Source of the DNA: Bacteroidota bacterium | Lineage (GTDB): Bacteria; Bacteroidota; Bacteroidia; Flavobacteriales; Crocinitomicaceae | NCBI GenBank assembly: GCA_029558435.1 | Contig: JAKQEZ010000092.1 | Span: 1 to 10,423 of the forward strand | DNA: 10,423 bases | Direction of reading: 5' to 3' | The notes under the pieces: generated by a model | Seen by the model: the letters and a program-made list of their open reading frames with translations, nothing else | Database searches by the model: none | What the model was told of the DNA's origin: nothing | Position numbers and translations under genes: made by a program | Shown: positions 1 to 10,423 of the stretch, piece after piece | Numbering within the stretch: position 1 is the first letter of the stretch | Layout of the letters: the number at the start of each line of letters is the position of its first letter

Positions 1-2
1 CC

Positions 3-16
3 AAACGTTAGCGGGC
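3..16 (+). repeat. 3' outer core of an attC-like element (left part outside window)
   Basis: The sequence AACGTTAGCGGGC (4-16) has the same AACGTT start as the right-hand cores at 2029-2040 and 10355-10366, so it is probably the closing core of another attC-like palindrome that lies mostly upstream of the window. GTTAGCGGGC (7-16) is exactly complementary to GCCCGCTAAC at 1869-1878. After one mismatch the pairing continues for four more bases, giving 14 of 15 for 7-21 against 1864-1878. It would mark the left boundary of block 1. Only the edge is visible, so the call depends on comparison with the two complete elements. Confidence 0.5.
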
Positions 17-23
17 ATTATAA

Positions 24-194
24 AAAAATACAGAGAGACAAAAAAAGTACATATGTAATGTTTGTGGATATGATGAAAGTTTTGGTGATTATTTAGATGT
101 GTATTTTCGGTCATGTTTTAAAAAATACAGAAATGGTTCTATTAGGGCTGAACACCCGCATGACAATGTGGCCATACCGCAAAAGAATAAGTAA
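24..194 (+). pseudogene. Short coding-like remnant without start codon, with a CxxC motif
   Basis: One frame stays open from an in-frame TAA at 21-23 to the TAA at 192-194, about 56 codons, and reads like real protein. It starts with a YICNVCGYDE segment holding a CxxC pair typical of a zinc-ribbon half, followed by an aromatic and charged stretch. The frame has no ATG; the only plausible alternative start, a GTG at 99-101, falls after the CxxC motif. It may be the 3' remnant of a small zinc-binding protein that lost its 5' end when the left boundary formed. It is too short to assign to a family, and chance openness in AT-rich DNA cannot be excluded. Confidence 0.3.
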
Positions 195-218
195 TAAAAC
201 TTTTAAATCTAAATCACT

Positions 219-713
219 ATGAAAAAGACTAAATCACTTGCTGCACTAATGACATTTACATTCATTTTTGTAGGTGTTATCTCATGTTCCGAGGAACAAG
301 GTTTAAAGAACGAAGAAGTTTTTGCATCAGTTGTAATCCCGGATAGTTACAAAAATAGCTCCCCAAATGGGCGGACTTCATCTGCGACAGAGGAGATTAT
401 TAGAGATATAACAGTAACTACCACGAGCGGAGAAGTTGTTCATGGAAAAGTAAAACTGACAATACCAACAGAAGGTGACGGTTTAGTCGGATTCGAGATA
501 ACACAGAATATATTCGACCAAACTGAACTCACTCCTACATTTTGGGCAGATGGAGTGGCAAAACAAAACAATGCTGGTAGAATTGCAGGTATTGGAGAAT
601 GCCTTTCCGGTTGCCAAGACATACCAAAGGGCGAAGGAAGAGGCTGGTGTAAGGCTGGTTGCTGGGTCGAATTAGCAGCTACGGTTGCAATTGTAATTAT
701 TGCTGTTGCTTAA
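219..713 (+). CDS. Predicted lipoprotein with twin CxxxC motif and hydrophobic C-terminus
   Basis: The 164-residue product begins with MKK and a hydrophobic stretch ending in the lipobox V20-I-S-C23, so it should be exported and lipid-anchored at Cys23. Residues 24-60 are polar and low in complexity. Residues 60-115 look like a small beta-rich domain (repeated T/V alternation). The tail is distinctive: C128-x3-C132, a Gly/Lys-rich linker, C144-x3-C148, then a hydrophobic segment of about 15 residues (150-164) that ends the protein. The paired CxxxC motifs could form two disulfides across a helical hairpin, and the tail could insert in a membrane. I do not recognise the family. Neither a signalling nor a membrane-active peptide role can be assigned. 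A strong terminator follows 7 bp after the stop, so it is probably transcribed as a single gene. Confidence 0.8.
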   Translation: MKKTKSLAALMTFTFIFVGVISCSEEQGLKNEEVFASVVIPDSYKNSSPNGRTSSATEEIIRDITVTTTSGEVVHGKVKLTIPTEGDGLVGFEITQNIFDQTELTPTFWADGVAKQNNAGRIAGIGECLSGCQDIPKGEGRGWCKAGCWVELAATVAIVIIAVA

Positions 714-720
714 TTATAAT

Positions 721-754
721 AGAGTCAGGCTTGCATAAGCCTGACTCTTTTTTT
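721..754 (+). terminator. Strong intrinsic terminator
   Basis: A perfect 12-bp stem (721-732 with 737-748) closes a GCAT loop and runs into an uninterrupted T-tract (748-754). It lies 7 bp after the lipoprotein stop codon. The T-tract ends at the base before the ATG of the next gene (755), so that gene has no leader free of the hairpin. Confidence 0.92.
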
Positions 755-1867
755 ATGAAAAAGGTACTCTGCTTCGTTTATACTTTCATAGGAATCTCAT
801 CCTGCTTCGGTCAATACAGATTGACTAAGACTGTTGTGGATGCATCAACTAACAAAGCAATACAGTTTGTAAATGTAACCCTAACTAGAAACCAACACAT
901 TGGGACAATTACTAATGAAGACGGATTATTTACTTTATACCTCGAAAATAAATCGGATTCAATTGAGGTCTCTCATATCGGATATAATAAAATTCGACTC
1001 ACTTTAGACTATAGCGGTGATACCATTCGCCTCAATAGCTTTGCCACGATTCTTGATGAGGTAACAATTAGCAGCATGTCAGCAACACAAGTTATGGTAA
1101 AGGCAATTCAAAACTTAGAAAATAATCACTCTGTTGAACCCGTTACATACAAAGCATTTGTCAGAATAGTCGAGTACCCTCAAGACACAAGTGAAATACA
1201 CATCTTTGAAGAACACTCAATAACTATTCATCAAACAAAGGATAGTAATTCGAAATTTAAGATAGAAAAAACAAGAGTGAATGCATTCTCTGAGGCAGGC
1301 GAAAGGAGACTAAAAGATTTAAGATTGATAAATATGGTCAGTGTATATGCTGACAATATTTTTAGATACCAAGACGACTTCTTGAAAAGAAGAAAAATAA
1401 AAAATTACAATTATAGGTTTCTTGAGAACCTAGTAAACGACTCCAGTATTTATGCAATTGAATGTAGATTAAAGGCTGACACTTCAATTATTTCAGCTAA
1501 ACTATTTATTGATAAAAAAACATTTGCCGTAAGTAAACTTACTAAGTATTATAAAAATGAAATTGGTCTCTACGACTTTACCGACATCAATTTTAGACAA
1601 CATGGTGACAAGTGGTACCTGTCAAATTCATTTCGTCATTTCAAGAATAGTATTTACTCACGATATGGTGACAAAAAAAATAATTACACAGACAGAGTTT
1701 GTAGTTACACTGTGACTAATGAATCTAATAACCTTAAAGATTTTAAAAGCACAGTAAATATCTTCGCTGAGCCAATTAAAAGACACAAGGGAAATTTTGA
1801 CGATGAGTTCTGGGGCCAACAAAATCACTTACCAATACCAAGTTGGATAGAAATAAGATTGAGATAA
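755..1867 (+). CDS. Secreted protein with N-terminal carboxypeptidase-regulatory-like domain
   Basis: The start at ATG 755 gives 370 residues and a clear signal peptide (MKKVLCFVYTFIGISSCFGQ). It could be cleaved by signal peptidase I before Q20, or lipidated at the Cys of ISSC. A longer reading from a TTG at 659 would run through the preceding gene and the terminator and is rejected. Residues about 22-105 fit the carboxypeptidase-D regulatory-like beta-sandwich (CarboxypepD_reg-like) common in Bacteroidetes envelope proteins: a V-x-D-x-x-T start, an FVNVTL strand, GTITNEDGLFTL, an IEVSHIGY strand and a closing LDEVTIS. The remaining 265 residues are not recognised; they resemble the outer-membrane-associated domain that often follows this module, rich in Lys, Tyr and Asp. 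The stop codon lies one base before the attC-like palindrome. The function is unknown, but envelope location is likely. Confidence 0.82.
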   Translation: MKKVLCFVYTFIGISSCFGQYRLTKTVVDASTNKAIQFVNVTLTRNQHIGTITNEDGLFTLYLENKSDSIEVSHIGYNKIRLTLDYSGDTIRLNSFATILDEVTISSMSATQVMVKAIQNLENNHSVEPVTYKAFVRIVEYPQDTSEIHIFEEHSITIHQTKDSNSKFKIEKTRVNAFSEAGERRLKDLRLINMVSVYADNIFRYQDDFLKRRKIKNYNYRFLENLVNDSSIYAIECRLKADTSIISAKLFIDKKTFAVSKLTKYYKNEIGLYDFTDINFRQHGDKWYLSNSFRHFKNSIYSRYGDKKNNYTDRVCSYTVTNESNNLKDFKSTVNIFAEPIKRHKGNFDDEFWGQQNHLPIPSWIEIRLR

Positions 1868-1868
1868 C

Positions 1869-2040
1869 GCCCGCTAACAGCGTGCTTGTGCAATGGCCGG
1901 GTTCGCAGCTGCATTAAACATTCGGTTTCATTATATACATTTGTCACGGTGGACAATTTACAACTGGTCGGGCTTGTCGGGCTATCGCCCTTAACAAGCC
2001 CTCCTAAACCGGCCACTGCACAAGCACCAACGTTGGCAGC
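1869..2040 (+). repeat. attC-like large imperfect palindrome 1
   Basis: This is a 172-bp imperfect palindrome. The outer cores GCTAAC (1873-1878) and GTTGGC (2032-2037) can pair with one wobble. Inside, the arm at 1882-1903 matches the reverse complement of 2006-2027 at 20 of 22 positions. Short unpaired spacers separate core from arm (AGC on the left, CAAC-type on the right). The central 100 bp is variable and has its own hairpin. The order core, spacer, long stem, variable loop, stem, spacer, core beginning GTT is that of integron attC sites, which are recombined as folded single strands. The left core belongs by complementarity to block 1 and the right core to block 2. The cores deviate from RYYYAAC/GTTRRRY, so the link to integron integrases is inferred. 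Confidence 0.65.
1970..2001 (+). repeat. Nested hairpin in the variable centre of palindrome 1
   Basis: GGGCTTGT (1970-1977) pairs with ACAAGCCC (1994-2001), and within it GGGC (1979-1982) pairs with GCCC (1987-1990) around a TATC loop. No T-run follows, so a terminator role is unlikely. It could form the terminal structure of the folded element. Confidence 0.55.
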
Positions 2041-2180
2041 AAGTGTAAAGGACGACCCGACAACAACAAACAGACGACTAAAAACGATAAAAAAGTAAAC
2101 CATTTTGACAAGTGACCAAGGACATAGAAACGATATTACAAACGTACAACAAGTAAGCCGACACTCATTGCCGACCCTAT

Positions 2181-2224
2181 GTTTTTTATTTTTTTCCCAC
2201 CACACATTTTTTAAAAACAATTTT
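2181..2224 (+). repeat. Subterminal inverted repeat, left copy
   Basis: Two exact words, GTTTTTTATTTTTTT (2181-2195) and ATTTTTTAAAAACAATTTT (2206-2224), recur as reverse complements in the same order at 10115-10129 and 10083-10101. The gap between the words is 10 bp here and 13 bp in the right copy. The left copy starts about 149 bp from the block start; the right copy ends about 109 bp from the block end. The words are AT-rich, which lowers their weight, but order and placement are consistent. Confidence 0.55.
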
Positions 2225-2247
2225 AGCCAGCCGCACAAATGGCACAT

Positions 2248-2290
2248 TTGGTTTTGCCCGACACACAAAGCCAATGCTTCGCAAAACCAA
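2248..2290 (+). repeat. Hairpin upstream of hsdR
   Basis: TTGGTTTTGC (2248-2257) is exactly complementary to GCAAAACCAA (2281-2290), with a 23-base loop. A second small hairpin, CAAATG (2236-2241) with CATTTG (2245-2250), overlaps its left edge, so the two could be alternatives. It may be a remnant of another recombination-site palindrome or an RNA structure in the leader; no regulator is known. Confidence 0.45.
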
Positions 2291-2301
2291 AAGAGCCATT
2301 T

Positions 2302-2334
2302 TTTGCCAACGCACCGACAAAAAACCGTATTTTG
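2302..2334 (+). promoter_or_regulatory. Possible Bacteroidetes-type promoter for the hsd operon
   Basis: A TTTG box (2302-2305) and a TATTTTG box (2328-2334) are 22 bp apart. This is close to the Bacteroidetes sigma-ABfr pattern TTTG-N19-21-TAnnTTTG, though the second box is one T short. Transcription would start about 15-20 bp before the hsdR ATG. The region is AT-rich, so chance matches are easy. Confidence 0.25.
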
Positions 2335-2357
2335 ACAAATTATTTTATGACGAGTAA

Positions 2358-4760
2358 ATGAGTGATAAAACTAAACATATTGACGACCACGACAGCGAAG
2401 CGGACACTTGCCGAAAGGAAGTGTTGCCCAAACTGTATGATAGCCAATGGGCTGATGAACTGATTCTTGAACAAAGAACATTCACAGACGGAAAAATTAT
2501 TGTGATAGGAAGAAAAGCAAGAAGAAAAAAAGCGAAACGCTTTGACTACTTGCTCCGCTATTCACAAAACTTTCCGATTGCAATTGTAGAAGCAAAGAAA
2601 AAATACAAGTCGGCTGCTGACGGCATCCAACAAGCAAAAGACTATGCTCAAATACTCGGACTTAAATTTGCCTACTCGACAAATGGAACTGAAATTTTAG
2701 AATTCGATTTTATCACAGGACTTGAAACCAAAATTTCAAAATACCCAACACCGACAGAGCTTTGGAACAGATTAAACCAAGCCGAACCAATAAAGCCCGA
2801 AATTCAAGAAACATTTTTAAAACCTTTCTTTGCTACAAGTGGCAAAGAAGTTAGATACTATCAACGAATTGCAATTAACCGAGCAGTTAAAGCAGTTTTA
2901 GAAGGAAAGAAAAGAGCTTTATTAACTTTAGCAACAGGAACAGGAAAAACAACAGTTGCTTTTCAAATCATTTATAAACTTTGGAATAACCGTTGGAATA
3001 CAAAAGGAGAACACCGCAGACCAAAAGTTTTATTCCTTGCCGACAGAAGTATTTTAGTTACAGACCCACACGCCAAAGATTTTGCAGTTTTTGGTGATGC
3101 AAGATGTTTAGTTCCCGAAGAAGGATTGCCAAGCAGCAGAGAGGTTTATTTTTCTACTTACCAATCTTTAGCAGAGGACAGCAACAGGGCAGGAGCATTT
3201 AGGAAATTACCGAAAGACTTTTTTGACCTAATCGTAATTGACGAGTGCCACAGAGGAAGTTCATCAGACGACAGTAATTGGAGAGTTATTTTAGATTACT
3301 TCAATACATCTGTTCAAATTGGTTTAACTGCTACGCCATTAAGAGACGACAACAAAGACACTTACGCATATTTTGGAAACCCGCTTTACATATACAGTTT
3401 AAAACAAGGTATTGAGGACGGATTTTTAGCTCCTTATTTGGTTCATCGAGTAGTTACTGAAACAGATGCAACAGGTTTCAGACCCGAAGAAGGACAATTG
3501 GACGATAACGGAGAATTAATTCCTGACGGAATTTATACAACTCCTGATTTTGAGAATACACTCTCCTATTTGCCAAGAACAAAAGCTGTTGTAAAACACC
3601 TTTACAACTTTATGTTGAAATACGGACGGTTTGATAAAACCATTGTGTTTTGTGTAAACCAAGAACACGCAGACCAATTCCGTAGAGAAATAAGCAACTT
3701 AAATACAGATTTAGTTCAGCAATATCCCGATTATGTTGTTCGGATTGTTTCAGAAGAAGGCGACATTGGAAAAGGGCATTTAGGCAGGTTTATGGACATT
3801 GACGAACCAATTCCAGTAATCGTAACCACTTCAAAATTATTGAGCACAGGTGTTGATGTTCCAACTTGCAAAAACATTGTGATTTTCAGAACAATCAACT
3901 CAATGACCGAATTCAAACAGATTGTTGGACGAGGCACAAGAGTAAGAGAAGACAAGGAAAAATTGTTCTTCACCATTTTAGATTATACAGGAAGTGCAAC
4001 AAGAAATTTTGCCGACCCTGACTTTGACGGAGAACCACCACTAATAACCGAAGATGAAATTGACGGAGACGGAAATATTATTGATGGTGATGAATGGACA
4101 CCAGACCCACCAACAGACGAGCCAGAAGATTGGGAAGATGATGACGACACAGACGAGCCACCAACAGGCGGAGGCGGTGGAGAATCAAGACGAAAATATT
4201 ATATCAGTGAAGGAACTGTTTCAATTGTTGCCGAAAGTGTTCAGATTTTAGATGTCAACGGCAAACTAAGAACAGTTCAGTTTACGCAATACGCAAAAGA
4301 ACAGATAACAACACTGTTTCCTTCAATGAATGATTTCCTTAGCAAATGGAATGACTTACAAGAACGACAACACATTTTAGATGAATTGGAAAACAACGGA
4401 ATTTCTATTGACCAATTAATGGAAATAACCAAACACCAAGATGTTGACCCGTTTGACTTGCTATGCTTTGTTGCCTTTGATTTAAAACCATTGACAAGAA
4501 AACAAAGAGCCGATTTGTTGAAGAAAAATAAACCTGACTTTTTTGCTCATTACAGCGAAAAAGCCAAAGAGGTTTTGAATTTGATTTTAGAAAAATATGT
4601 TGACTATGGTTTAAATCAAATCAGACCCGACATTATTTCGGTTGAGCCAATTGCACAACAAGGCAACCCAATAGAAATAGTAAATGAATTTGGTGGAATA
4701 GACGAATTCAAAAAAGCAATTGAAGAATTACAAACCCTGCTATATGCAGAAGCAGCATAA
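2358..4760 (+). CDS. hsdR: Type I restriction enzyme, R (endonuclease/translocase) subunit, EcoEI type
   Basis: This 800-residue motor and nuclease subunit would cut unmodified DNA after ATP-driven translocation. The N-terminal PD-(D/E)xK nuclease shows D63, E78-A-K80 and the following QAKDYA helix (92-97), a type I restriction hallmark. Superfamily 2 helicase motifs follow: ATGTGKTT (192-199), DECH (295-298), GLTATP (322-327), STGVDVP and QIVGRGTR (521-528). Residues about 565-611 form a striking acidic, Pro- and Gly-rich linker with DDDD and GGGGG runs. The rest matches the EcoEI R C-terminal domain that contacts the methylase. Length is normal for this subfamily, and no frameshift or missing catalytic residue is seen. 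hsdM starts 8 bp after the stop. Confidence 0.96.
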   Translation: MSDKTKHIDDHDSEADTCRKEVLPKLYDSQWADELILEQRTFTDGKIIVIGRKARRKKAKRFDYLLRYSQNFPIAIVEAKKKYKSAADGIQQAKDYAQILGLKFAYSTNGTEILEFDFITGLETKISKYPTPTELWNRLNQAEPIKPEIQETFLKPFFATSGKEVRYYQRIAINRAVKAVLEGKKRALLTLATGTGKTTVAFQIIYKLWNNRWNTKGEHRRPKVLFLADRSILVTDPHAKDFAVFGDARCLVPEEGLPSSREVYFSTYQSLAEDSNRAGAFRKLPKDFFDLIVIDECHRGSSSDDSNWRVILDYFNTSVQIGLTATPLRDDNKDTYAYFGNPLYIYSLKQGIEDGFLAPYLVHRVVTETDATGFRPEEGQLDDNGELIPDGIYTTPDFENTLSYLPRTKAVVKHLYNFMLKYGRFDKTIVFCVNQEHADQFRREISNLNTDLVQQYPDYVVRIVSEEGDIGKGHLGRFMDIDEPIPVIVTTSKLLSTGVDVPTCKNIVIFRTINSMTEFKQIVGRGTRVREDKEKLFFTILDYTGSATRNFADPDFDGEPPLITEDEIDGDGNIIDGDEWTPDPPTDEPEDWEDDDDTDEPPTGGGGGESRRKYYISEGTVSIVAESVQILDVNGKLRTVQFTQYAKEQITTLFPSMNDFLSKWNDLQERQHILDELENNGISIDQLMEITKHQDVDPFDLLCFVAFDLKPLTRKQRADLLKKNKPDFFAHYSEKAKEVLNLILEKYVDYGLNQIRPDIISVEPIAQQGNPIEIVNEFGGIDEFKKAIEELQTLLYAEAA

Positions 4761-4768
4761 AATAAAAA

Positions 4769-6370
4769 ATGGCAAAGACGAAAAAAGAAAAAGCACCGAA
4801 GAAAGCAGCGAAACCAGTTGTCATTGAAACACCTGCACAGCGTTTAAGTGGCATTATAAAAACGTGCAGAAACATTATGCGTAAGGACAAAGGTATGAAC
4901 GGTGATGGAGACCGTTTGCCAATGTTGACTTGGATAATGTTTTTAAAATTTTTGGACGACAACGAAAATTTGCAAGAAGTAAACGCACAACTTGAAGGAA
5001 AAAAATACAAATCAGCCATTGCAGAACCTTACCGTTGGAGAGATTGGGCGAAAGACAAAAATTTGACAGGTGATGATTTATTAGCTTTTGTAAACAACGA
5101 GAAAGTAAAACTTGCAGACGGCAAAGAACGAACAGGTTTATTCTACTATTTACGAGCATTGCAAAGTGAAACAGGAGCAGAACGAAAAGACGTAATTGCA
5201 ACCGTTTTTAAGGGCGTTACAAACCGAATGATTAACGGTTATTTGCTTCGTGACATCATCAATAAAATTGACGAAATACATTTTACAAGCAACGAAGAAC
5301 TAAACTCACTTTCACATTTATACGAAAGCATCTTAAAGGAAATGAGAGATGCCAGTGGTGATGCAGGTGAATTTTATACTCCTCGTCCAGTTGTGAAATT
5401 TATGGTTGAAATGCTTGACCCCAAAATTGGCGAAACAGTTTTAGACCCTGCTTGTGGAACAGGCGGTTTCTTGGTTGAAGCATTTGAACATTTAAAAAAA
5501 CAAGCCAAAACTGTAGAGCATAAAAAACTACTGCAAGAAAAATCAATCATTGGCGGTGAAGCAAAACCACTTCCCTATTTGCTATCACAAATGAACTTGT
5601 TGCTTCACGGATTGAACTACCCGAAAATTGATAGTGGTAACAGCTTGCGTTTTCCTTTAAAAGATATTGGTGACAGTGAAAGAGTTGACATTGTATTAGC
5701 AAATCCACCATTTGGAGGCGAGGAAGAAAAAGGAATTTTAAACAACTTTCCTGACGACAAACAAACTACCGAAACAGCATTACTCTTTTTGCAACTGATA
5801 ATGCGAAAACTAAAACGCAAAAAGCCAACACAAGAAGGCGGCAGAGCCGCCATTGTTGTGCCTCACGGAACTTTGTTTGCCGATGGTATCGCAGCAAGGG
5901 TAAAAAAACAATTAATTGAAGACTTTAATCTTCACACTATTGTAAGATTAGGCGAGGGAATTTTCGCTCCCTATACAGATATACCTTGTAATCTATTATT
6001 CTTTAAACAAGGAGAGCCAACAAGAAATATTTGGTATTACGAATTGTTACCACCTGCTGATAAAAAGAAATACAGCAAAACAAAACCCATACAATTAGAA
6101 GAATTTGACGAACTGAAAAAATGGTGGACTAAGCGAATAGAGAATGATAATGCTTGGAAAGTAAGCGTTGATAAAGTTGTTCAAATTGATGAAAATGGGA
6201 AACTAATTAATGTGAACTTGGATTTAAAAAATCCAAATCGAAAAAATGAATTTGATTTTAAAGAACCAATTGAATTAGTGGCTTCAATTTTAGGCAAAGA
6301 AAAACGTGTGTTTCAATTGTTAAATGAGATTAGTGAAACAATTAATTTTAAAGTTGCAAATGAAGCATAA
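4769..6370 (+). CDS. hsdM: Type I restriction-modification system, M (N6-adenine methyltransferase) subunit
   Basis: The 533-residue subunit would transfer methyl groups from S-adenosylmethionine to adenine N6 in a complex with HsdS, protecting self DNA and forming the core of the restriction complex. It opens with a Lys/Ala-rich tail (1-18), then the HsdM N-terminal helical domain (about 25-165). The catalytic domain contains GEFYTPR (200-206), motif I DPACGTGGF (226-234) for cofactor binding, and motif IV NPPF (312-315), the catalytic signature of N6-adenine enzymes. The C-terminal part (about 440-533) is helical and typical of HsdM contact with HsdS. It is intact. It overlaps hsdS by 11 bp, suggesting translational coupling. 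Confidence 0.96.
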   Translation: MAKTKKEKAPKKAAKPVVIETPAQRLSGIIKTCRNIMRKDKGMNGDGDRLPMLTWIMFLKFLDDNENLQEVNAQLEGKKYKSAIAEPYRWRDWAKDKNLTGDDLLAFVNNEKVKLADGKERTGLFYYLRALQSETGAERKDVIATVFKGVTNRMINGYLLRDIINKIDEIHFTSNEELNSLSHLYESILKEMRDASGDAGEFYTPRPVVKFMVEMLDPKIGETVLDPACGTGGFLVEAFEHLKKQAKTVEHKKLLQEKSIIGGEAKPLPYLLSQMNLLLHGLNYPKIDSGNSLRFPLKDIGDSERVDIVLANPPFGGEEEKGILNNFPDDKQTTETALLFLQLIMRKLKRKKPTQEGGRAAIVVPHGTLFADGIAARVKKQLIEDFNLHTIVRLGEGIFAPYTDIPCNLLFFKQGEPTRNIWYYELLPPADKKKYSKTKPIQLEEFDELKKWWTKRIENDNAWKVSVDKVVQIDENGKLINVNLDLKNPNRKNEFDFKEPIELVASILGKEKRVFQLLNEISETINFKVANEA

Positions 6371-7505
6371 TTGGATAGAAACTTCGCTTGGAGAATTACT
6401 CAAATTAAATGTAGACAGTGTTGACGTAAATGCTCAACCTGAATTCCATTTTGCAGGTGTTTATTGTTTTGGAAATGGTCTATTTGAAAAAGGATATCAG
6501 AATAACGAAACATCATACAAAACATTTAATCGTTTACACAAAAATCAAATTGTAGTTAGCAAAGTAAAAGGCTGGGAAGGTGCTATTGCATTAGTTACAG
6601 ACGAATTTGAAGGAATGTTTTTATCACCAGTCTATCCAACATTTGAATTAATTTCTGACGAAAAAGCCAATTTGAAATTCATTCACTATTATTTACAACA
6701 AGAACAGGTTTGGCAGCAACTCTTAGACAATTCAAAAGGAATCGGAGCAAGACGAAATTCAGTTTCAGAAGAACAATTTTTAAAACTAAAAATCAATCTG
6801 CCAGATAAACGAATACAAAATGCTTTAGTTTCAAAGATTGAATTAATTCAAGCCAAAGTAGAAGAAATAAAACAATTACGGTTAGAAATGGAAAAGGAGA
6901 TTAATGATCTACGATACAATCTCTTTATCAAACTACAAGAAAAATATAATTCAATTAGAATTGGTGATTTTTTAATACCACAAAATAGAAGTGTGACAAT
7001 CCAGCCAAATATTATTTATAAGCAAGTAACTGTAAGTGGGAATCACAGAGGTGTTACACTTAGATGCAAAATTAAAGGCAGTGAGATTGGGTCAAAACAA
7101 TACTTAGCTAAAGAGGGTGATTTTATAATTTCAAAAATTGATGCTAGAAATGCCGCAATGGGAATGATTTCAAAAGAACTTGATGAAGCGGTAGTAACTG
7201 GCGATTTTCCATTATTTGGATTTAAAGAAATTATTAACCCATTGTTTTTTTATCATTTTTCAAATACACCATTTTTTGATATGGCTTGCAAAGAAGCAAG
7301 CGAAGGAACAACAAACAGAGTTAGGTTAAAAATGGATAGGTTTTACAACATTCAAATTCCTTTACCACCAAATGAAGAACAAAATAGAATAGTTGAATTA
7401 CTTGAAAAGATGAATAAAATAAAACAATCACATAAGGAACAAGAAGCAGAATTAAAACAACTAATGCCAAGTTTGTTGAACAAGGCTTTTAAAGGAGAAT
7501 TATAA
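6360..7505 (+). CDS. hsdS: Type I restriction-modification system, S (specificity) subunit
   Basis: HsdS reads the two halves of a bipartite target. The ATG at 6360 is preferred over 6324 because the protein then begins MKHNWIETSLGELL, the usual W-x-x-x-x-LGE entry into the first target recognition domain, and overlaps hsdM by only 11 bp. This gives 381 residues. Recognition domain 1 covers about 1-160. A central conserved coiled coil (about 163-195, Glu/Lys/Leu-rich) sets the spacer. Recognition domain 2 covers about 200-345 and contains the KEGDFIISKIDARNAA segment typical of such domains. A C-terminal coiled coil ends in LMPSLLNKAFKGEL, a common HsdS ending. Both halves are present, so the gene appears functional. 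The recognition sequence cannot be read from the protein by eye. No inverted partial hsdS copies that would allow shuffling are in the window. Confidence 0.93.
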   Translation: MKHNWIETSLGELLKLNVDSVDVNAQPEFHFAGVYCFGNGLFEKGYQNNETSYKTFNRLHKNQIVVSKVKGWEGAIALVTDEFEGMFLSPVYPTFELISDEKANLKFIHYYLQQEQVWQQLLDNSKGIGARRNSVSEEQFLKLKINLPDKRIQNALVSKIELIQAKVEEIKQLRLEMEKEINDLRYNLFIKLQEKYNSIRIGDFLIPQNRSVTIQPNIIYKQVTVSGNHRGVTLRCKIKGSEIGSKQYLAKEGDFIISKIDARNAAMGMISKELDEAVVTGDFPLFGFKEIINPLFFYHFSNTPFFDMACKEASEGTTNRVRLKMDRFYNIQIPLPPNEEQNRIVELLEKMNKIKQSHKEQEAELKQLMPSLLNKAFKGEL

Positions 7506-7520
7506 AAAAGAATTATTGAA

Positions 7521-8402
7521 ATGGGGAAGAAAATTGGAGATGTAAAGTTTGAATTAACGCAGGTTTATAAAACCTATGCGGAACAATTGCAACTTGCTGC
7601 AAATGTTTCAGACTTTTTACTTGATAGTGCCAATATAAATTCCGCAGGGCAACAAGTTGAAGGCAGTTTAAGAGTTCTGCTTAAAAACCTACTTCCTGAT
7701 AGAGTTTCGGTTACACAAGGGCATATTGTAGATAAAAAGGCGAATGTTAGCTATCAACAAGATATATTAATTACAGAAAGCTTTTATACAAAAAGCTTAA
7801 TTCGTTCTCTTGATGGAACTGAATTTTATCCAGTTGAAGCAATCTTTGCTTGTGGTGAAGTGAAAAAAACTTGGTCGCAATCAAAGCTAGAGGCTGCTAT
7901 AAAATCTATAAAGAGAAATAAAGATGATTTACAGAGAACAAAAATTCCATCAAACCAAATTCAAACAGGTTCTAATTTTATTCAGCTAAGCGATAATATT
8001 TCTACAAACCCATTCAGAAACCCTCTGTTTTGCTTTACATTTTCTGTTGATTATGACAACACTTACAATGAAAAGAAAATAGCAGAAATCTATAGTGATG
8101 ATGCTAATAAGCCTTATTTACCCAACATTTCAGTTATCCTGAATAGAGGCATTATTGTTTGCGTTGATAAAGAAAAATTAGGCACGGGAATTATAGAAAT
8201 CAAACTCTATCCTGAATTTAATAAAGCTGACGATAAATGCTCTTGGGTAATGCTTAGATTAAATCCCGAAGAAAATCTTGCATATCTAATCTTTATGCTA
8301 ACTCAACACATTAATGACACTATTTTAGAAAAAGTATCAGCAATGGAGTATGGTAGTTCTATGATTGAAATTTCAAAATCAAATATTTTCCCGATAAAAT
8401 AA
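7521..8402 (+). CDS. DUF6602-like protein, putative PD-(D/E)xK nuclease fold
   Basis: This 293-residue protein starts 15 bp after hsdS. The N-terminal half fits the DUF6602 pattern: a helix, then QQVEGSLRVLLKNLLPDR with E47, a G-H-I-V-D strand, QQDILI with D81, PVEAIFACGEVK with E113-V-K115, and a Lys-rich helix. E47, D81, E113 and K115 are arranged as in PD-(D/E)xK nucleases, which suggests, but does not show, a metal-dependent DNA cleavage site. The C-terminal half (about 150-293) is mixed alpha/beta without recognised motifs. DUF6602 genes are uncharacterised; the position directly behind hsdS, in the same orientation, points to a defence role. It could also be an inactive DNA-binding member of the fold. 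Confidence 0.7.
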   Translation: MGKKIGDVKFELTQVYKTYAEQLQLAANVSDFLLDSANINSAGQQVEGSLRVLLKNLLPDRVSVTQGHIVDKKANVSYQQDILITESFYTKSLIRSLDGTEFYPVEAIFACGEVKKTWSQSKLEAAIKSIKRNKDDLQRTKIPSNQIQTGSNFIQLSDNISTNPFRNPLFCFTFSVDYDNTYNEKKIAEIYSDDANKPYLPNISVILNRGIIVCVDKEKLGTGIIEIKLYPEFNKADDKCSWVMLRLNPEENLAYLIFMLTQHINDTILEKVSAMEYGSSMIEISKSNIFPIK

Positions 8403-8407
8403 GAAGA

Positions 8408-9478
8408 ATGAAACTAGAAAATTTAGAAATAATCAAATTGACCGTTCACAAAATATTTGGGAGGTCTAAAACGGTTGCTGAAGCTTATGCTGGTGAGTGT
8501 AAAGAGCTTGTTAAATTAGGTTCGGAAGGAATGGATATTCTAAAGAGTAGAATAAGCTCTTGCATAAATCATAAATCAAAATTCTATGAACTTGACTTAG
8601 TCGAAGAAGGTGAAAATTCATTTTTTGATTTGCAAGCCCCATTGTGGGGTTCAAGAGAGCCAAAGTTTTTAAAAATCTCGCAATCAATTGCTGATAAAGC
8701 AGCAGAAGCACATAAAAATGCAAATATTCCAGACGGCTTATTAATGGTTGTTGAAGCTAAAATTAGCACGTTCAAGACTGTAATCGTTGTTAAGGCAGAA
8801 AAATCAGACGCCTTTTCAATGAAAGGAACTGATTTACAACTTGTAAAAGATATTTTCTTGTCATCGGATAAAACTCTTTACAAAGTAGGTTTTTTCCTAA
8901 AGAGAATTGAGGATAAAGAGGGAAAAAATTCTTACAAGTATTTCGTATATGATGATGCTTTCTCACCATCTAAAGGTGATTTAGCTCATTATTTTTACAA
9001 TACTTTCCTAGGACTATCCACTGAAAAAAACAGCAAATTACTTACTAATAAGTTTCATAGAAGTTTATCGGGTTTTATTCAAGACCATATTGATTTTGGA
9101 GATAAATATGAATTACTTAGAACAATTGATAGAGCCTTCATAGACCCTAATAGAAAATCAATAAATGCTACTGATTTCAAGGACTTTTTTCCTGATGAGT
9201 TGCACCCATTATTTCATTCTCAAATTGTAGAAGAATTTCCAAATGCTTTTATTAAAGACAATTCAATTACTACAAGTATTGACACTAAGAGAATTGCACT
9301 ATCGGAATCAACTACTTTACTTTTAAGAAATGCTCCAGATGGAATTATCACAGGTAACACAGCGAATAAAACAGATATGGCAAAACTGAGAGCAACAATA
9401 GATTCAGGTAATTTGACTCAGAACTATAATTATGCTTTAATTCCGTCAGCAGTACCAGTAAAACAAAGTGAAAATTAA
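8408..9478 (+). CDS. 37-kDa nucleoid-associated-like protein (YejK/NdpA family)
   Basis: The 356-residue protein begins 5 bp after the previous stop codon. Several segments line up with the NA37/YejK family as I recall it: PDGLLMVVEAK (108-118), followed by a hydrophobic strand, and in the middle (about 192-225) a block equivalent to the FFMDFLGASE region of YejK, here HYFYNTFLGLSTEKNSKLL. A C-terminal domain with IDTKRIALSESTTLLLRN and an ending resembling the family's last strand follow. E. coli YejK is found with the nucleoid and binds DNA. Here the gene is part of an apparent R-M operon, so it may bind phage DNA or help the upstream nuclease-like protein. The similarity is judged by eye and is distant; the DUF4868 family (KwaB of Kiwa) is an alternative to test. 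Confidence 0.65.
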   Translation: MKLENLEIIKLTVHKIFGRSKTVAEAYAGECKELVKLGSEGMDILKSRISSCINHKSKFYELDLVEEGENSFFDLQAPLWGSREPKFLKISQSIADKAAEAHKNANIPDGLLMVVEAKISTFKTVIVVKAEKSDAFSMKGTDLQLVKDIFLSSDKTLYKVGFFLKRIEDKEGKNSYKYFVYDDAFSPSKGDLAHYFYNTFLGLSTEKNSKLLTNKFHRSLSGFIQDHIDFGDKYELLRTIDRAFIDPNRKSINATDFKDFFPDELHPLFHSQIVEEFPNAFIKDNSITTSIDTKRIALSESTTLLLRNAPDGIITGNTANKTDMAKLRATIDSGNLTQNYNYALIPSAVPVKQSEN

Positions 9479-9489
9479 TAGCATTCAGA

Positions 9490-9738
9490 ATGAGTCAAAA
9501 CTTACAAATATTACTTGGACTACTAACACTAATTTCGGTTGTTGGTGGTTTTATTTATTGGCATTTTAAGACAGTAAATAGCTTTAAAGACCAAGTTAAT
9601 GACCTGAAAATGCAAATGAAGGATTTGGAGCATAGAGACAATTTGCAACAGCAGACAATTGACCAGTTAAAGGATTTATTTCCTATTCTAAAAGATGCGG
9701 TTGAAATAATTCAAAACCAAAAAAGAATAAAGAAATGA
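9490..9738 (+). CDS. Small membrane-anchored coiled-coil protein
   Basis: This 82-residue protein starts 11 bp after the nucleoid-associated-like gene. Residues about 5-26 form one transmembrane helix (LQILLGLLTLISVVGGFIYW), probably leaving a short N-terminus outside or in the periplasm. The remaining 55 residues are charged and heptad-like (Lys, Asp, Gln and Leu), predicted coiled coil, and end in a basic KRIKK tail. No enzymatic motif is present. It overlaps the next gene by 4 bp (ATGA), so the two are probably translated together and may form one membrane complex. It is unrecognised; the layout resembles small anchors or scaffolds of membrane-linked defence systems, which is inference. 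Confidence 0.72.
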   Translation: MSQNLQILLGLLTLISVVGGFIYWHFKTVNSFKDQVNDLKMQMKDLEHRDNLQQQTIDQLKDLFPILKDAVEIIQNQKRIKK

Positions 9739-9989
9739 GCAACACAATAGACTTTCAACGACTTTCCTACTTAGGTGATAGGCTTAGGGCAGGTCTTGCA
9801 ACAAAGCAAGAGAAAGATGAGTATATGCTCATTCTTTACAGAAACGGAAAAATCACTAAACAGCAATACAATGAGTATTTAGCTAACGCAAATAAATCAA
9901 ACACAGACGAAATTGTTAATGCAGCTTTAGCAGTTGGAGCAGTTTTATTAATTGGATATTTGATAAGTGAAATGTTTAAGAGTAAATAA
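9735..9989 (+). CDS. Small protein with C-terminal transmembrane helix
   Basis: The 84-residue product starts inside the stop codon of the previous gene (ATGA overlap). Its N-terminal half is charged and helical, with the segment KITKQQYNEYLAN (about 40-52) resembling the short helical hairpins of SHOCT-like modules, which often sit beside a membrane helix. Residues about 59-80 (VNAALAVGAVLLIGYLISEM) form one transmembrane helix, followed by a short FKSK tail. Tail-anchoring would leave the helical part in the cytoplasm, while its partner is anchored at the N-terminus. It is the last gene of the block; noncoding repeat sequence begins right after the stop. The family is not recognised. Confidence 0.7.
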   Translation: MSNTIDFQRLSYLGDRLRAGLATKQEKDEYMLILYRNGKITKQQYNEYLANANKSNTDEIVNAALAVGAVLLIGYLISEMFKSK

Positions 9990-10077
9990 TGCCAACGCTA
10001 TTTGCAAGCACATTGCCAAAGCCGCACAAGCCCAAGCACAGACCAAAGCTTTGTCAAAGAGCTTGCAAAGCCAACGC
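9990..10077 (+). repeat. Partial attC-like remnant behind the last gene
   Basis: The segment opens TGCCAACGCTATTTGCAAG (9990-10008), closely resembling the left arm of palindrome 2 (TGCCAACAGCGGTTTTGCAA, 10232-10251). TTTGCAAGC (10001-10009) is exactly complementary to GCTTGCAAA (10061-10069), and the word GCCAACGC occurs at both 9991-9998 and 10070-10077. CAAAGCTTTG in the centre is a perfect palindrome. No matching GTTGGC core closes it, so it looks like a decayed or half site rather than an active one. TGCCAAC is also complementary to the block's start, so the block may once have ended here. A transcription-terminating role is possible, but no T-run follows. Confidence 0.4.
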
Positions 10078-10082
10078 AGAGA

Positions 10083-10129
10083 AAAATTGTTTTTAAAAAA
10101 TTTCCCATCCCTTCAAAAAAATAAAAAAC
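10083..10129 (-). repeat. Subterminal inverted repeat, right copy
   Basis: This is the reverse-complement partner of 2181-2224: AAAATTGTTTTTAAAAAAT (10083-10101) and AAAAAAATAAAAAAC (10115-10129) match exactly, with a 13-bp gap. A further 10-bp inverted word links 10198-10207 with 2095-2104 (GTAAACCATT on the left). Together they give the block partly mirrored ends. Confidence 0.55.
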
Positions 10130-10229
10130 GCAACGCACAACCCGACACAAAAAGACAAATAAGCAAACAGACAATGACACTTAAACCAAACATTGACAAT
10201 GGTTTACAAGGACGGACGACAGAACACCA

Positions 10230-10366
10230 GCTGCCAACAGCGGTTTTGCAAAAGTGGCGGTGCAGTGCTTCGTATGACAGTGAAGTGGTTAATCAAAATT
10301 TAGTGCTTCGATTGAAGTTTAGTGCTGAAAATCGCCACCTTCGCAAAGCCGCAAAACGTTGTAAGC
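10230..10366 (+). repeat. attC-like large imperfect palindrome 2
   Basis: This 137-bp element has the same plan as palindrome 1. The left core is GCTGCCAAC (10230-10238). The arm at 10240-10259 pairs with 10333-10352 at 17 of 20 positions, all three mismatches being transitions. The right core is AACGTTGTAAGC (10355-10366). The centre is unrelated in sequence to that of palindrome 1 and contains the direct repeat AGTGCTTCG (10264-10272 and 10302-10310). The two elements thus share outer ends (GCYAACAGCG on the left, AACGTTG and AGCAAG on the right) but not their interior, the signature of a family of structure-recognised recombination sites. The right core would open the next block. Confidence 0.62.
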
Positions 10367-10423
10367 AAGCCTATTAGACAACACATCAACCATAAACAGA
10401 CAAACAAATAATCGACCTTTGAC
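10358..10423 (+). mobile_element. Start of a third candidate cassette (continues beyond window)
   Basis: After the core GTTGTAAGC (10358-10366) comes AC-rich sequence with GACAACA (10377-10383) and AAACAGACAAAC (about 10394-10405), resembling the first 45 bp of the R-M block (GACAACAACAAACAGACGAC, 2058-2077). No gene begins within the window. If the cassette model holds, GCTTACAAC should close this block downstream. Confidence 0.35.

Follow-up and report, generated by a model that had tools for sequence, protein, structure and literature searches.

A probable integron-type cassette array of Bacteroidota with its own recombinase lineage

The stretch analysed here, referred to as the window, comprises all 10,423 nucleotides of positions 1 to 10,423 of contig JAKQEZ010000092.1 from a Bacteroidota bacterium (Crocinitomicaceae; assembly GCA_029558435.1). 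It is very probably a piece of a cassette array belonging to an integron-type system of Bacteroidota with a recombinase lineage of its own, as judged by comparing its two blocks and their closing sites with those of related loci. The window holds two whole cassettes, preceded by the tail of an earlier site and followed by the opening bases of a third cassette. An inspection of the letters made without database searches (the sequence-only reading) had proposed that each of the two adjacent blocks closes with a palindrome beginning with a complement of the block's own start. The four end sequences are found where that reading placed them (GTTAGCGGGC at 7-16 and GCCCGCTAAC at 1869-1878 for the first block, GTTGGCAGC at 2032-2040 and GCTGCCAAC at 10230-10238 for the second) and are complementary within each block, in exact runs of 10 and 9 bases respectively. 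A run of at least 9 occurs in 42 of the 47,790 GTT/AAC pairs of the window, so that one named pair is expected about once in 1,100 and two named pairs far more rarely. The components of the array are as follows.

1..6, + strand: last bases (CCAAAC) of the preceding cassette's site, clipped by the window edge; the family's sites have AAC as their final bases, followed by GTT
7..2031, + strand: cassette 1, running from its GTT up to the base that precedes the next GTT, with a 10-base start/end complement
1864..2046, + strand: folded site 1 (attC-like), 61.1 bits with the covariance model; R'' at 1869-1878, stem arms at 1882-1908 and 2001-2027, R' GTT at 2032-2034
2032..10357, + strand: cassette 2 (8.3 kb), with a 9-base start/end complement and no internal site at E 0.01
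10224..10372, + strand: folded site 2 (attC-like), 127.6 bits; R'' at 10230-10238, R' GTT at 10358-10360
10358..10423, + strand: start of the third cassette (GTTGTAAGCAA..), clipped by the window edge and fitting the start consensus

Cassette boundaries and the folded site family

The region of site 2 (window 10190-10423) gives BLAST matches to ten plasmid records, seven of them Bacteroidota plasmids and three from E. coli with short matches. A pattern drawn from the first examples recovers at least 120 genome stretches, mostly Bacteroidota by title, together with 36 viral stretches, and a covariance model built later matches 104 of the 106 genome stretches from the pattern that were put through it. 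In an alignment of 33 sites the left core AACAGC and the right core AACGTT are invariant and a stem GCGGTTTTGC/GCAAAGCCGC carries a common T.G pair, whereas the outer stems are variable. RNAalifold predicts 15 pairs for these rows, 13 of them with changes on both sides. In the named structure 90.5% of the cells pair, compared with 72.7% in shuffles, and 104 cells are changed on both sides against a shuffled mean of 34.6; none of 500 shuffles reaches the observed values in either respect. Sliding the register drops pairing to 46% or less, although the structure was drawn from the same rows and the slides therefore favour it.

The covariance model (R1) rests on the structure of these 33 rows, which include both window sites, and it scores the two palindromes at 127.6 bits (10224-10372) and 61.1 bits (1864-2046); besides these two sites it finds no further match in the window at E 0.01. 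Site 1, folded as single-stranded DNA, is far more stable than its shuffles (z -5.0, with none of 200 as good). The palindromes suspected at the outset are thus real members of one structured family of covarying hairpins, about 120-150 nt long, which on sequence grounds is attC-like in being a folded imperfect palindrome with a conserved structure.

The relation between block starts and block ends was examined with R1 matches from four sets (A2, A3, A5 and A6, with 153, 87, 189 and 244 found), at most 150 of each being aligned. The 537 aligned matches were reduced to 525 by removal of overlaps, 19 could not be anchored, and deduplication left 477 distinct sites and 307 distinct blocks. The six bases that follow GTT are the complement of the block's own end in 225 of the 307 blocks, and five or six bases match in 252; the two sides of a single site match at all six in 15 of 477. 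When block ends are shuffled the mean number of six-base matches is 5.6, with a maximum of 14 in 2000 shuffles, and the contrast between own-block and same-site matches has a Fisher p of 7e-105, computed on blocks that are not independent. The eleventh base agrees in only 0.3% of blocks; starts have A there and ends mostly G (in the complement sense). Consecutive sites share the same orientation in 323 of 325 cases, and block length has a median of 856 bases and a 95th percentile of 5.1 kb.

Such palindromes could be intergenic repeats or terminators whose ends match through a shared consensus and without any cassette movement, and the well conserved arms of the sites and a GTT flank that is largely consensus (GTTR...G) count in favour of that explanation. 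However, the match lies in the variable bases and follows the block and not the site: positions 5-7 agree at 0.86-0.88 within a block and at 0.28-0.39 across a site. In addition, near-identical blocks are found in unlike contexts with breaks at GTT, and we regard the explanation by repeats as extremely improbable. The comparison shows that each block is one cassette, which has its boundaries at GTT and carries its own closing folded site.

In 28 pairs of blocks the alignment covers more than 85% of each partner, and 12 of these pairs have unlike context, some of the 12 coming from loci that overlap within one genome. For nine pairs the alignment was repeated with 600-base flanks included. In six of the nine the homology breaks off 2-7 bases beyond where the next GTT starts; its onset in those pairs precedes the cassette's own GTT by 1-47 bases and falls within the conserved arm of the preceding site. 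The clearest case is a 2,622-bp cassette that is 100% identical between Cecembia rubra and a Flavobacteriales metagenome-assembled genome (L186/L122) with unlike neighbours, in which the identical stretch opens 26 bases ahead of the cassette start and closes one base beyond the next GTT. In the pairs L183/L035, L212/L211, L005/L005 and L007/L005 homology sets in 1-16 bases ahead of the cassette's own GTT and continues to 3-7 bases beyond the start of the following GTT; in L203/L203, a tandem duplication, it continues to 2 bases beyond. Homology in L183/L182 extends 24 bases past the next GTT, and L008/L005 and L205/L076 are diverged, with broken alignments. The boundaries hold closely where the sequences are recent, and comparison shows that cassettes occur singly in different contexts.

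The family is widespread. Genomes chosen for a pattern match all have R1 matches (30 of 30, with 1 to 90 sites each), as do 88 of 198 genomes drawn evenly from Bacteroidota (E 1e-6, 15 candidates scored per genome), a sample that includes its centre, G015, itself picked for having sites. Further elements in related genomes are therefore abundant, shared cassettes of other genomes break at GTT where the boundaries had been set, and blocks of other genomes move singly; the three outcomes that the sequence-only reading had named as refuting it (a lack of further elements, boundaries elsewhere, and both blocks moving as one) did not arise. Its broader suggestion, a divergent or undescribed integron-like cassette system of Bacteroidetes, is supported. 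Cassette 2 as a whole was not found elsewhere.

A recombinase family and an attI-like site beside the arrays

A more complex relationship is seen with the recombinase. The sequence-only reading suggested looking for a tyrosine recombinase with the integron-specific insert; a tyrosine recombinase does lie beside the arrays, but it is without the insert. We compared 31 neighbourhoods, comprising 30 of the top TIGR02249 hits, from 28 of the 30 site-bearing genomes (G003 and G011, which gave no more than Xer-level hits, were omitted), and one plasmid. Sites are present in 25 of the 31, the nearest lying 0.5-4.3 kb from the recombinase and pointing away from it in 25 of 25 (p 6e-8); the nearest array runs in the direction of the recombinase gene in 19 cases and diverges from it in 6. 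A start that matches the first cassette's own end is found within -30 to +320 nt of the recombinase in 22 of the 25, compared with 35 of 596 in a control using the ends of other loci over the same span. The 22 flanks have A at -8 in all cases and T at -7 in 18, as in GTATATTTACTA|GTT. The junction of the first cassette beside the recombinase is a candidate attI-like site, and the comparison shows arrays starting at this predicted site, next to a tyrosine recombinase of a distinct family.

The recombinase has an N-terminal domain followed by a SAM-like domain and the catalytic domain, in which R204, K229, H294, R297, H320 and Y329 are invariant in 23 rows and are read as the probable catalytic residues. 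The integron integrase profile TIGR02249 is over its cut-off in none of the 30 site-bearing genomes, and the best hits skip profile positions of about 180-239. The insert region is represented by 14 profile positions, compared with 57 residues in IntI4, and a gap is present at the insert in all 11 family rows shown against IntI1, such that the family lacks the approximately 40-residue IntI insert (I2 helix). Nine IntI proteins form a clade in the tree (support 100) and none of the 31 family members falls inside it; monophyly of the family itself has a support of 32. The N-terminal domain is possibly HARP-like: the top PDB profile match is the SMARCAL1 HARP domain (a weak E of 0.036), the top Foldseek match is also HARP (weak; E 0.097, prob 0.87), and Pfam HARP is matched in 4 of 25 members (best 6.4e-5, weak) and DUF5710 in 7 of 25. 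The recombinases of L178, L179, L182, L183 and L193 are about 480-580 residues in length with longer N-terminal parts, in which the N-terminal domain appears to be repeated.

A recombinase with the N-terminal part is present in 32 of 87 site-bearing genomes and in 2 of 73 site-free genomes (p 3.6e-8), where a call required a profile start of 35 or less and E below 1e-70, one of those counted has an internal stop, and the census covered 87 of the 88 site-bearing and 73 of the 110 site-free genomes of the sample. We note separately that genome G133, with several copies of the recombinase including the N-terminal part, is not among the genomes for which a site match is listed; a diverged family of sites may be in use there.

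Two known kinds of system have to be weighed here. The first is that the blocks are ordinary canonical (IntI) integron cassettes, an attC cluster without its integrase. The logic of cassette, folded site and attI is the same, and canonical IntI is present in the phylum as sampled, over the cut-off in 28 of the 149 genomes that belong to the same class as G228, an Ignavibacteriales genome; 20 of the 28 are also in the 198-genome sample. However, IntI is over the family cut-off in none of the 30 genomes with sites, and 5 of the 20 IntI-bearing genomes have a site match, compared with 88 of 198 in the whole sample. R1 at E 1 matches nothing in ten IntI neighbourhoods (138,778 bases) or in the class 1 integron of R751, a comparison that ran one way, with the R1 model onto canonical stretches. 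The cores differ as well, as the sequence-only reading had remarked. The consensus of canonical attC cores is GTTRRRY/RYYYAAC, whereas 307 cassette starts give GTTRNNNG, in which the fifth base is T or C in half and the sixth is C in half. We consider canonical cassettes very unlikely.

The second is that cellular XerC/D proteins shift the blocks at double-stranded sites, as in the Xer/dif-type modules (pdif) of Acinetobacter. Xer-like recombinases are related to the array recombinase, and weaker recombinase hits in the genomes searched are read as Xer-like. The sites, however, are covarying hairpins of about 120-150 nt that keep one orientation (323 of 325 neighbours), and a dedicated recombinase adjoins the arrays, whose starting point next to it is constant. 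A dif site measures 28 bp, and successive pdif modules lie in alternating orientations. Xer-type movement is in our judgement equally improbable.

Several observations count against an integron-type array with its own recombinase. No six-base match between start and end is seen in 82 of the 307 blocks, and site 2 as a whole folds no better than shuffles (z -0.73, with 43 of 200 as good). Six of the 31 recombinase neighbourhoods have no site in the fetched stretch, 55 of the 87 site-bearing genomes have no recombinase with the N-terminal part at E 1e-70 (which may reflect weak hits, drafts, or arrays without a recombinase), and the window itself has no recombinase. The HARP resemblance rests on weak scores, and all of the support for cassette recombination is comparative.

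A plausible scenario for the integron-type array is that the recombinase would excise cassettes as circles by recombining the AAC/GTT junctions of two sites, and that the same enzyme would insert these circles at attI or between cassettes. It would act on the folded single strand of the site and, with less weight, the N-terminal HARP-like domain might help the enzyme to read the folded DNA, the part that the I2 helix plays in IntI.

Cargo of the window, resistance plasmids and phages

Cassette 2 carries a complete type I restriction-modification system together with accessory genes, and the earlier description of a block of about 8.3 kb with seven genes is confirmed. The genes of the two cassettes, and a leader hairpin in cassette 2, are listed below.

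219..713, + strand: lipoprotein-like peptide, 164 aa; no Pfam family at E 0.01
755..1867, + strand: 370-aa protein with a CarboxypepD_reg-like domain (PF13715, E 6e-11)
2233..2314, + strand: leader hairpin, also in cassettes of other genomes
2358..4760, + strand: HsdR-like type I restriction subunit (PF04851, PF08463)
4769..6370, + strand: HsdM-like N6 methylase
6324..7505, + strand: HsdS-like specificity subunit (PF01420, two stretches), with a likely start at a later ATG, 6360
7521..8402, + strand: DUF6602 protein
8408..9478, + strand: NA37-like nucleoid-associated protein (E 6.3e-7)
9490..9738, + strand: small protein, 82 aa
9735..9989, + strand: small protein, 84 aa

The leader hairpin of cassette 2 (window 2233-2314, GCACAAATGGCACATTTGGTTTT...AAAACCAAAAGAGCCATTT) is found at 42 places in 37 loci, some of which overlap. 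At 37 places there is a site in the same locus, and all 37 are in array orientation, with 24 of them no more than 350 nt after a cassette start; the hairpin may serve as a promoter, an insulator or an aid to recombination. The leader (2181-2224) and trailer (10083-10129) of cassette 2 also share an inverted repeat, with exact matches of 19 and 15 bases, across a distance of 7.9 kb, and both segments resemble cassettes of other genomes. This similarity could permit cargo to be swapped between cassettes by homologous recombination.

Sites of the family are also associated with resistance genes. Riemerella plasmid pRCAD0416RA-1 has 13 sites by R1, all in one orientation, that lie among aadS, ere(D), tet(X), lnu(I), OXA, estT, APH and erm(F) genes. 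Sites follow the tet(X) copies of this plasmid and the tet(X2) of Sphingobacterium, and the cassettes that come next differ. An Acinetobacter plasmid with tet(X3) has a family recombinase (match 81-347, without the N-terminal part) upstream of this gene (L232 6001-8260). The start of tet(X3), GTTATGTGCCAT, is identical to the start of a Riemerella tet(X) cassette, and tet(X3) is placed like a first cassette. The R1 model finds no full site after tet(X3) on this plasmid; the left arm of a site can be discerned there by eye and is then broken off. Group II intron reverse transcriptases are present near family sites on two plasmids (L009 8995-10311 and L006 15618-16934).

Among viral contigs of IMG/VR, L139 has an array of short cassettes (7501-11363) together with terminase, portal and head genes. 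L132 (6886-12330) has an array of short cassettes with a shorter family recombinase and, by eye, an attI-like start. Its larger open reading frames run opposite to the array, and structural phage genes are not among the five proteins scanned.

Relationship to known systems

We find no description of this cassette system in open-access PMC text, the scope of which leaves aside subscription journals and preprints, although the excerpted text of PMC8138268 notes insert-less integron-like members. There, the insert is not fully conserved in an integron-like subgroup of tyrosine recombinases, to which members of the Bacteroidota family may, by sequence, already belong; the same excerpts mention neither folded sites nor arrays nor a Bacteroidota system in connection with the insert-less members. 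Apart from the integrons of Chlorobi and Ignavibacteriae, the part of PMC9024848 (IntegronFinder 2.0) consulted lists for the Bacteroidetes proper only solitary integrases and a single complete integron, in Salinibacter, and a review includes Bacteroidota among the phyla with integrons (PMC8618304, in excerpt). If the system works as it looks, it would be a main and so far unnamed route of gene exchange in a major phylum.

Modules of xerD and tet(X), in which the recombinase may belong to the same family, are described from Empedobacter, Chryseobacterium and Acinetobacter (PMC7473080 and PMC11194056, in excerpt). The likeness lies in the Acinetobacter recombinase upstream of tet(X3), a family match over 81-347, and in the tet(X3) start that it shares with a Riemerella tet(X) cassette. 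In the excerpts of PMC7473080 xerD is opposite in direction to tet(X14), no adjoining integron is reported, and the role of xerD is left open; in contrast, the recombinase and tet(X3) on our Acinetobacter plasmid have the same direction. The system bears on whether xerD beside tet(X) mobilises it, the matter left open in those excerpts, and if true would explain the stacking of tet(X), OXA, estT and lnu genes in plasmids of Riemerella, Empedobacter and Sphingobacterium. The pdif (Xer) modules are similar in that resistance-gene modules are flanked by sites for tyrosine recombinases. These modules are not known to have a folded site or a dedicated recombinase at an array end.

Integrons, including those clusters known as CALINs, are also close to the system. 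Both have a recombinase gene, an attI-like site, head-to-tail arrays and a GTT junction, with folded sites in which the halves of the R boxes belong to neighbouring cassettes, and the recombinase shares a C-terminal SPLD-type motif. The Bacteroidota recombinase differs in lacking the approximately 40-residue insert with the I2 helix and in having an extra N-terminal domain, and the core of the sites is GTTRNNNG and not GTTRRRY; the R1 model has no match on canonical stretches. The median block of 856 bases and the direction of the nearest array (co-directional in 19 of 25, divergent in 6) are also listed as different. The system appears to work like an integron, and in two defining features that were tested, the IntI insert and the GTTRRRY core, it departs from one; it is therefore filed as a variant integron-type system and not as a member proper of the integron family.

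A bolder proposal, which we offer tentatively and judge somewhat more apt to fail than to hold, is that this is a second independent integron lineage, phylum-wide in Bacteroidota and extending to phages and resistance plasmids, whose I2-less recombinase would read folded single-stranded sites through a HARP-like fork-binding domain. In that case tet(X) and other resistance genes would have been mobilised out of this lineage as their natural home, and the lineage would be a surviving outgroup or intermediate that bears on how IntI arose. On that origin, the excerpted text of PMC7790495 names the lack of intermediates as a limit. The system would also make the need for the I2 helix in folded-site recombination testable.

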